A DNA stretch of 64,000 bases from Megasphaera vaginalis (ex Bordigoni et al. 2020) (GTDB taxonomy: Bacteria > Bacillota > Negativicutes > Veillonellales > Megasphaeraceae): positions 248,001-312,000 of the forward strand of contig NZ_OEQB01000003.1 of the NCBI RefSeq assembly GCF_900240295.1, in the 5' to 3' direction. Both the position numbers and the translations under genes were made by a program. Shown one piece after another: positions 58,391 through 61,776 of the stretch; positions within the stretch are counted from its first letter, which is position 1; every line of letters begins with the position of its first letter. The notes under the pieces are model-generated. The model made no database searches. It saw only the letters and a program-made list of their open reading frames with translations, and had not been told where the DNA came from.

Positions 58391-59258
58391 TTATTTTTTT
58401 ATATAATGCCAGATCAAGGCCTGTGTGCCTTCATTCTCATAGCCTGCCGCGGCAAGTTCTTCAAAGTTTTCCAAGGCTTTCTGTAAAATATCCAGGGAAA
58501 TCCCTTTCTTTTCACTTTCTTCCTGCGCCAACTTGAAATCCTTGATGATGTGTTTCATATAAAATCCCGGCGCATAGTCATGTGCCAGTATTTTCGGCCC
58601 TAAGCTGCTGAGCTGCGCACTGCCGCCGGCGCCGCCGGAAATCGCCCCTAAGAGCACGGCCGGATCGAGACCTTGCGCGTTACCGTATGTTAACGCTTCA
58701 CACACGCCGCTGAGCGCGCCGGCAATGAGAATCTGGTTCGCCAATTTGCCGTGCTGACCGCTGCCGGCTTTTCCCAAATACGTAATCGTCTTACCGACGG
58801 CGCGAAATACGGGCAACAGCGTTTCAAAGTCGCCCTTTTTCGCCGCCCGCCAAAAGCGACAACGTACCGGCAATGGCGCCGCTTTCGCCGCCGGTGACGG
58901 GGACATCGAGGACGTGAAAGCCTTTGGCCTTGCCGTCCCGGTAAAGCCGCTCGGCCAAGGTCGGACTCGTCGTCGTACAATCAACCAGATACGTTCCCGG
59001 TGCCGCGGCGTCAAATATATTGCCTGCGCCGTAATAAACCTCTTCGACATCAGCAGGAAACCCTACCATGGTCATGACGAGATCACAATCGTTGACACAT
59101 TCACCGATAGTCGGAAAGAATGCGGCGCCCGCCGTCAGAAGCGCTGCCGCTTTCTCTTTCGTACGCGCGTAGATCCGGACAGAAAAGCCCGCCTTCAGCA
59201 AATTGCGTACCATCGGTTTGCCCATGATACCGACGCCGATAAACCCTATCGTCTTCAT
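58391..59258 (-). pseudogene. Frameshifted 3-hydroxyisobutyrate/tartronate-semialdehyde reductase-like gene
   Basis: Two overlapping frames make up one normal beta-hydroxyacid dehydrogenase of about 288 aa. The N-terminal part (59258 to about 58835) has GFIGVGIMGKPMVRNLL and DVPVTGGESGAIAGTLSLLAGG. The C-terminal part continues as GDFETLLPVFRAVG, then GKAGSGQHGKLANQI with the catalytic Lys. The break lies in the run AAAAAGGG (minus strand, 58832-58839): one base too many sends the first frame to a stop within three codons. All motifs on both sides are intact, so the change is recent, a sequencing error, or a switchable tract. It follows the D-2-hydroxyacid dehydrogenase gene by 12 bases. Confidence 0.85.
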
Positions 59259-60300: not shown

Positions 60301-61245
60301 CTACCAGTCCAGTTTTCCCGTCAACAAGTAGACGAGCAATCCTTTTTCCGCATGACGGCGATTTTCGGCTTCATCCAAAATCGTTTCCAAGTGCTGCTCC
60401 ATGACCTCTTTGCTGATTTCGAAGCCCGGATGGATAGGCATATCATGGAATACGAGCGCCTTTGTGCCTGCCAGTAATGCCGCATCGATTTGATACGGCA
60501 TCATCTGCTCAATGATGGCGTTCTTCTTTTCCTCATAGGCAGGATTCGTAAAAAATTCCATGTCGACCCATGTATCGGTATAGACGCAGTCCACGGCACC
60601 GACAATTTTCTTCAATTCTTCTTTGCTGACAGTCGGAGAAATTTCATGATAACGTCCCGTGGCCTTCAATGAATCGTAAAAATCACCGCCCACAGCCATG
60701 ACCTGACTGAAAGGTGTCAGCCCGTACATCTGCCCGCCTAAGGCCGTAACGATTTCAGATAAAGAATTAAAGGTATTGTTTTTGGCGCCAATGTACAGAA
60801 CCGATGCCGAGAAACGCCCCAGCTTTTCATATAACGTCAGCATATCCGCCAACGCCTGCGTCGGGTGAAACGTATTATCGCAACCGTTGATAACCGGTAC
60901 AGTAGCACTGTTCATAAAGGCCGCCGTCGTTTCAGCTTTCTTGAATCGCCCCATAATACAGTCCACATTGCGGCAAACGTACTGCACTTCACTCATCGTA
61001 TCGCCGATCGTAAAATTGCTGTCACTCCATTTTTGATTATACGCCTTTCCGCCTAATTCTTCCATGCCTATGACGAAAGATAAATATGTCCGATTAGAGG
61101 TTTTTTCAAAAAGCGTATATAATTTTTTCCCTGATAAAATATTCGCATATGCCTCTTGATTTTCTTTTATTTTCTTTGCCAACAATAAGATGCCCTGTAA
61201 TTCATCAGACGTGTAATTTTTAAAGCTGTTAACGTGTTTCATCAT
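60301..61245 (-). CDS. Divergent aspartate/ornithine carbamoyltransferase family protein
   Basis: 314 aa with the two-domain carbamoyltransferase fold. The phosphate-binding STRTR of OTC/ATC reads SNRTY (Ser50, Arg52), in FEKTSNRTYLSF. The carbamoyl-phosphate motif HPTQ (127-130) is intact. The ornithine motif SMG is replaced by DME (228-230, in YTDTWVDMEFF), and HCLP by HDMP (267-270), losing the catalytic-site Cys. It probably uses carbamoyl phosphate, but the amino substrate differs from ornithine. No arginine genes are nearby. GGAGGAG precedes the ATG. Neighbours are two hydroxyacid dehydrogenases. Confidence 0.8.
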   Translation of the reverse strand: MMKHVNSFKNYTSDELQGILLLAKKIKENQEAYANILSGKKLYTLFEKTSNRTYLSFVIGMEELGGKAYNQKWSDSNFTIGDTMSEVQYVCRNVDCIMGRFKKAETTAAFMNSATVPVINGCDNTFHPTQALADMLTLYEKLGRFSASVLYIGAKNNTFNSLSEIVTALGGQMYGLTPFSQVMAVGGDFYDSLKATGRYHEISPTVSKEELKKIVGAVDCVYTDTWVDMEFFTNPAYEEKKNAIIEQMMPYQIDAALLAGTKALVFHDMPIHPGFEISKEVMEQHLETILDEAENRRHAEKGLLVYLLTGKLDW

Positions 61246-61283
61246 ATCTCCTCCATAAATACATGCCTCCGTCGAATGCATTT

Positions 61284-61354: not shown

Positions 61355-61390
61355 AATAAAAACCGGTGATTCCAAAGGAATCACCGGTTA
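61355..61390 (-). terminator. Terminator of the cold-shock gene
   Basis: Perfect 13-base arms AACCGGTGATTCC/GGAATCACCGGTT with a three-base loop, followed by TTTATTTT. Confidence 0.95.
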
Positions 61391-61416
61391 AAAGGTTTTC
61401 TATTTACTCAAGCTTC

Positions 61417-61614
61417 TTACGCTTTTGTAACGTTAGCAGCCTGCGGTCCACGAGCGCCATCGACGATGTCGAATTCAACTTCCTGACCTTCTGTCAGGGA
61501 TTTGAAGCCGTCTTCCTGGATAGCTGAAAAATGTACAAACACATCGCCGCCATCTTCTCTTTCAATAAAGCCATAACCTTTTTCTGCGCTAAACCATTTT
61601 ACTTTACCGTGCAT
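61417..61614 (-). CDS. Cold-shock protein, CspA family
   Basis: 65 aa single cold-shock domain. RNP1 is KGYGFIER and RNP2 VFVHFSAI; the protein begins [13 protein letters not shown]. It binds single-stranded RNA/DNA and prevents secondary structure. GGAGGA precedes the ATG. It is monocistronic with a consensus promoter and strong terminator; the leader is only about 45 nt, so a long thermosensor leader as in E. coli cspA is absent. Confidence 0.97.
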
Positions 61615-61667
61615 ACCAAAATCCTCCTAAATAAAAACAATTCCAGCTATCTTGTAGCTCTTACGTT

Positions 61668-61696
61668 AGTGTATCATAATCAAAGTGGCATGTCAA
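61668..61696 (-). promoter_or_regulatory. Promoter of the cold-shock gene
   Basis: Minus strand -35 TTGACA (61691-61696), 17-base spacer, -10 TACACT (61668-61673). Confidence 0.85.
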
Positions 61697-61776
61697 TGTA
61701 ATTTCCTCTCATAATTATAAATATTTTAAAATTTTTATTCATATTTATCTTATTAAGATTTATGATTACTGCTGTT

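Follow-up and report, generated by a model that had tools for sequence, protein, structure and literature searches.

A divergent carbamoyltransferase subfamily with DME and HDMP motifs in Megasphaera, a probable ornithine carbamoyltransferase

The locus and its active-site motifs

The window, a 64,000-nucleotide stretch of DNA from a Megasphaera-like genome (G000; 2.2 Mb, 99% complete), carries a carbamoyltransferase gene that we call DME-type after one of its altered motifs (Table 1). The plus strand over 60301-61245 contains many stops and the coding frame lies on the minus strand, where translation likely begins at the second methionine (M2, 61242), as relatives start there and the Shine-Dalgarno spacing also fits. 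No riboswitch or T-box was found upstream of the gene. A match to the cspA thermoregulator (61359-61748, minus strand; 74.7 bits, gathering score 78) covers the upstream cold-shock gene, and positions 58391-59258 of the minus strand hold a 2-hydroxy-3-oxopropionate-reductase-like gene with a single frameshift near 58844 (GGCGAAAAAGGG), which makes it either a pseudogene or a product of sequencing error. An oxamate/allantoin route, as might be read from the 2-hydroxyacid dehydrogenase and tartronate-semialdehyde-reductase-like neighbours, was rejected because these neighbours are not conserved in relatives and the YgeW models give no match. No conserved neighbours of the gene were found among its relatives.

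Table 1. Features of the DME-type carbamoyltransferase gene, in window coordinates.
Feature	Position	Strand	Remarks
DME-type carbamoyltransferase CDS	60301..61245	minus	314 aa from M1; open frame reaches 61281
GGAGGAG	61248-61254		Shine-Dalgarno evidence for the start of the transcarbamylase CDS
SNRTY, carbamoyl-phosphate loop	61084..61098	minus	residues 50-54; S-x-R-T core kept
SNF, 80's loop	61012..61020	minus	Asn replaces Gln82 across the whole DME clade
HPTQ, carbamoyl-binding motif	60856..60867	minus	residues 127-130; intact
Asn-Asn, equivalent of the ornithine-binding Asn167 region	60775..60780	minus	intact
DTWVDMEFF, DxxxSMG equivalent	60550..60576	minus	residues 224-232; Asp231 and Met236 kept; Ser235 to Asp
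HDMP, HCLP equivalent	60436..60447	minus	residues 267-270; Cys273 to Asp, Leu274 to Met

The first-pass annotation had described a protein that keeps HPTQ and the family fold and reads SNRTY, DMEFF, and HDMP in place of STRTR, SMG, and HCLP. HPTQ is indeed present, both Pfam domains score far above cut-off (PF02729, 5.5e-31; PF00185, 8e-31), and the three altered motifs are confirmed on the minus strand, the strand having been left unstated. S-x-R-T is the core shared across the transcarbamylase family, and the supposed rewriting of STRTR is correct in its letters but leaves this core intact; SNRTY is moreover confined to Megasphaera, other members of the clade reading STRT[F/Y/A/R/N]. The change of SMG to DMEFF is real and is better read as DxxxSMG to DxxxDME, with the equivalents of Asp231 and Met236 kept. 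The clade-wide replacement of Gln82 in the 80's loop is a further change that had been missed.

Residues were mapped by alignment with the E. coli ornithine carbamoyltransferase (OTC), guided by the residues that Shi et al. (PMC4581275) tabulate. Lys53, Ser55, Arg57, Thr58, Arg106, His133, Gln136, Asn167, Asp231, Met236, and Arg319 are kept, so that the ornithine contacts Lys53, Asn167, Asp231, and Met236 are all present, and the clade-wide changes are Q82N, S235D, C273D, and L274M. The HxLP motif acts mostly via main-chain oxygens according to the same review, and an Asp within it is known from the diaminopropionate and diaminobutyrate enzymes DPTC and DBTC (PMC4581275). Asp228, Met229, Glu230, Asp268, Met269, and the 80's-loop Asn77 of the window protein are invariant in 22 aligned DME-clade sequences. 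Purifying selection on the gene is strong, with a dN/dS of about 0.04 (0.036-0.045) between two pairs of Megasphaera copies, and chance or decay is rejected as the source of the motif changes because these positions vary little or not at all among the 22 homologues and dN/dS is this low.

Relationship to known carbamoyltransferases

A scan of GTDB species genomes returned 28 loci, and TW[VL]DME[FY]F together with HDMP is common to all of them except two frameshifted copies and L056, a canonical OTC of Opitutia that falls outside the DME type. Identity to the window protein is 73-81% in Megasphaera, about 49-59% in Lachnospiraceae and Oscillospiraceae, 45% in Lentisphaeria, and 43% in a bathyarchaeon, and a further member with 39.7% identity (TWVDMEHF and HDMP) lies on a Priestia megaterium plasmid. 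In the drafts of Anaeroglobus geminatus (L049) and Megasphaera paucivorans (L052) the gene contains a single frameshift, which reflects either sequencing error or decay. A search for viral copies found none. One Oscillospiraceae MAG (G066) holds, besides its DME-type copy, an odd OTC relative in which HRLP and DVWRSP replace HCLP and DxxxSMG (L069, 775-1680).

In a 70-row tree, made by a quick method with SH-aLRT but no bootstrap and containing some long branches, the DME clade forms one group (SH-aLRT 100) on a stem of 1.34 changes per site. This is the tree comparison that the first-pass annotation had proposed, and it places the protein outside any characterised clade, on its own within the OTC branch next to canonical OTCs and apart from PTC, AOTC, PyrB, and two DPTC-like sequences, the last being NRPS-linked Streptomyces sequences that bear the DPTC/DBTC signature. 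The Ruminococcus copies nest among those of Lachnospiraceae, which suggests that the gene was transferred; in an 80-genome sample of the family to which the Ruminococcus-type genomes belong, it occurs in the query genome alone. No description of HDMP carbamoyltransferases was found in the open-access literature, an absence that carries little weight, and the accessible part of a gut amino-acid reconstruction mentions the ArgA and ArgF3 replacements but nothing that resembles a DME-type enzyme. The clade is probably a divergent OTC subfamily, and apparently an undescribed one.

Membership in the transcarbamylase superfamily is evident from SxRT, HPxQ, and the two-domain fold, with HxLP reading HDMP (Leu to Met). 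Among NCBIfam models those for OTC rank first, yet the window protein stays below their curated cut-offs (TIGR00658, 194.4 against 280.85 bits; NF011379, 271 against 373 bits), and the PTC, ATC, AOTC, and YgeW models score lower; the bathyarchaeal member exceeds both OTC cut-offs. The OTC motif pair DxxxSMG and HCLP is likewise absent, as the protein reads DxxxDME and HDMP. An AlphaFold model (pLDDT 94) has OTC structures at the top of the aligned list (Z 37-38, 2.0-2.2 A), the best being 3tpf (Z 37.8, 2.0 A over 292) and 1a1s (Z 37.5), and PTC structures follow about 1 to 1.5 Z lower, whereas the top Foldseek match is a PTC, 4a8p. OTC and PTC are close in fold, and fold alone therefore does not settle the substrate.

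Compared with ArgF (TIGR00658, NF011379/PRK14804), the DME-type protein has the same fold, length, and unknotted chain, the same S-x-R-T, HPxQ, Lys53, Asn167, Asp231, Met236, and Arg319, and the same genomic role in arginine synthesis. It differs in the four clade-wide substitutions, in an FF inserted after DME, in its identity of about 30%, and, the bathyarchaeal member excepted, in scoring below the curated cut-offs. Other identities were rejected. The knotted enzymes AOTC, SOTC, and YgeW do not apply since the proline-rich and long 120's loops are absent in alignment with a Xanthomonas AOTC, and the YgeW models, although of the same superfamily, score only 14-16 bits; a separate YgeW-like gene occurs in other Megasphaera. 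ATC (PyrB) was dismissed because the RxQxER loop is absent and the genome has a separate PyrB. PTC shares the fold, but has Gln in its FxQ motif (FxQxSxRT), Gln164, and a YGLx loop ([Y/W][G/W][V/L/I]x), whereas the window protein has Lys in FEKTS and the DME loop, reaches 150.6 of 500 bits with TIGR04384, and comes from a genome with no carbamate kinase. DPTC and DBTC (L-2,3-diaminopropionate and L-2,4-diaminobutyrate transcarbamylase) share the Asp of HxLP, as HDLP against HDMP here, but have [T/S]RWQ.. where the window protein has DTWVDME, have Lys for the Arg319 kept here, and sit on a separate branch. Two carbamoyltransferases beside NRPS genes on Streptomyces plasmids (L149, 8001-8993; L150, 7989-8909) are annotated as OTC and bear a diaminopropionate/diaminobutyrate-type signature (TRWQTTG or TRWNTTG, with HDLP). 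ArgK is also a divergent OTC able to replace ArgF, and the Priestia DME copy likewise stands in a biosynthetic cluster; by its published motifs, however, ArgK has SGRTS and keeps SMG and HCLP (PMC10765591), and the motifs of the window protein differ from these.

Arginine biosynthesis genes in DME-containing genomes

The source genome has two transcarbamylase genes, PyrB and the DME-type gene. Its argG and argH are joined on contig 1, and contig 9 carries in order pyrB, carA, carB, a short-type argC, a gene for an unknown protein, argB, and argD, where argB, argD, carA, and carB were named by sequence reading and argC by a TIGR01850 match below its cut-off. The DME gene lies outside the arg operons. 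An ARG box (TGAATAAAAATTCA) precedes argC in Megasphaera; none was found before the DME gene in the window, and enrichment across the clade is weak (p 0.03).

Among genomes with the DME gene, 14 of Megasphaeraceae and 9 of Lachnospiraceae, none has a canonical OTC above the TIGR00658 cut-off, whereas all four Lachnospiraceae without the gene do. In Megasphaeraceae, argC is present in all 11 genomes with the DME gene and absent from all three without it (Fisher p 0.003, uncorrected for kinship). ArgJ and argG occur in every one of the four Lachnospiraceae tested, and argH in three. No normal or full-length ArgJ was found in the Megasphaera genomes. A protein of about 235 aa is encoded between argC and argB in Megasphaera (L134, 7360-8061; L135, 6240-6956); the L135 protein weakly resembles the first half of ArgJ (E 2.8e-7), the L134 protein not at all. 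Two small-genome Megasphaera (G004 and G010; L101, L102) keep argG-argH and lack argC and OTC, as if they were living on imported citrulline.

Six genomes, some of them from the rumen, hold the DME gene in addition to a canonical ArgF: one Lentisphaeria, one Lachnoclostridium, and four of the Ruminococcus type. Those of the Ruminococcus type have ArgF on a contig with argG, ArgJ, and argH, so that their DME copy is either superfluous or serves another function. The source genome lacks carbamate kinase, as do most other DME genomes; in the six Megasphaera that have one, the kinase adjoins a YgeW-like gene. This YgeW-like transcarbamylase (G009:C28:36248-38379, with similar arrangements in G001, G006, and G013) is absent from the source genome.

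Function of the DME-type enzyme

The DME-type protein probably belongs to a divergent subfamily of anabolic ornithine carbamoyltransferases (citrulline synthases) and is the only candidate OTC here, as argued by the lack of a canonical OTC over the cut-off, the presence of arginine genes, the co-occurrence with argC, and the missing carbamate kinase. Its substrate and direction, and what each Asp does, are inferred. Relatives that lack canonical ArgF would, like this Megasphaera, depend on it for the OTC step of arginine biosynthesis, with carbamoyl phosphate made by CarAB binding to the intact site of S-x-R-T, R106, HPxQ, and R319, and ornithine entering the pocket that keeps Lys53, Asn167, Asp231, and Met236. 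It is possible that the Asp at the Ser235 position acts as an acidic partner of the ornithine alpha-amino group, and the Asp of HDMP would replace the HCLP cysteine beside the attacking delta-amine. Several observations count against an OTC: the window protein falls under all curated OTC cut-offs, the gene accompanies ArgF in six genomes, stands outside the arg operons, and has no ARG box in the window, Megasphaera is without a normal ArgJ, and two drafts carry a frameshift. The two clade-wide Asp residues in the second-substrate site could also mean another acceptor.

The first-pass annotation took the new Asp and the DME loop to argue for an amine other than ornithine. An acidic pocket serving such an amine in arginine-independent metabolism would be consistent with the clade-wide S235D and C273D, the long stem, the six genomes that also hold ArgF, the Priestia copy within a biosynthetic cluster, and the existence of HDLP enzymes with other diamine substrates (PMC4581275). 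We nevertheless consider it unlikely, since Lys53, Asn167, Asp231, Met236, and Arg319 are kept, some of which DPTC-like enzymes lose, and since the DME gene replaces canonical OTC where arginine genes occur and is missing together with argC. The Asp in HxLP has precedent in the diaminopropionate and diaminobutyrate enzymes (PMC4581275), from which the DME clade stands apart, and the gene content of the genomes points to arginine biosynthesis. A non-ornithine substrate is thus a less likely reading than a divergent OTC in arginine synthesis; another acceptor may yet be used, particularly where canonical ArgF is also present.

The substrate might instead be N-acetylornithine or another acylated ornithine, the acyl group later being stripped by an M20 deacylase as in the acetylornithine route; Megasphaera is without a normal ArgJ, and in one relative an M20 family hydrolase adjoins argD. 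ArgJ yields free ornithine, and the Lachnospiraceae that share this active site have it in full length; with the alpha-amino contacts kept and the AOTC loops absent (alignment with one AOTC), we regard this substrate as very unlikely. Carbamoyl phosphate can be used catabolically only with the help of carbamate kinase, whose absence from the source genome and most DME genomes argues against a catabolic role. A catabolic OTC or putrescine-type enzyme making carbamoyl phosphate for ATP is therefore hardly credible, despite the closeness of PTC structures in fold, as the PTC signature residues are also absent and the kinase of Megasphaera relatives adjoins the YgeW-like gene instead.

On the Priestia megaterium plasmid (strain KF18, NZ_CP085446.1; L148, 15001-23689), a DME-type OTC heads a gene cluster of the phosphonate-peptide type. 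Behind it, all on its strand, come genes for two ATP-grasp proteins of the L-amino-acid-ligase kind, split subunits like those of phosphonopyruvate decarboxylase, a P-loop protein, an M20 peptidase, a luciferase-like monooxygenase, and PEP mutase. The PEP mutase and decarboxylase point to a phosphonate product and the ligases to a peptide; a phosphonoacetyl-ornithine-like compound is our guess. Phaseolotoxin producers have ArgK as their self-resistance OTC (PMC4530439), and the OTC that opens the Priestia operon recalls this arrangement, which by analogy suggests an inhibitor-resistant OTC. No paper describing an OTC together with PepM was found in the open-access literature, again an absence of little weight. 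It is conceivable, if rather unlikely, that the whole clade consists of inhibitor-insensitive OTCs, with the Priestia copy as a self-resistance gene and gut or rumen bacteria having taken up theirs as a replacement for ArgF or a spare; the remodelled ornithine-side and phosphate-side residues would then permit work amid natural OTC inhibitors. Should the Priestia link reflect inhibitor resistance, it would hint at a natural OTC inhibitor that has yet to be described.

If the DME-type protein is a divergent anabolic OTC, models of arginine need in gut bacteria can show a gap at this step and mistake Megasphaera and some Lachnospiraceae for auxotrophs, as the enzyme falls under the OTC cut-offs. 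Moreover, an OTC-like pocket with two added carboxylates, conserved in bacteria and an archaeon, may serve as a natural test of second-substrate choice in this family.
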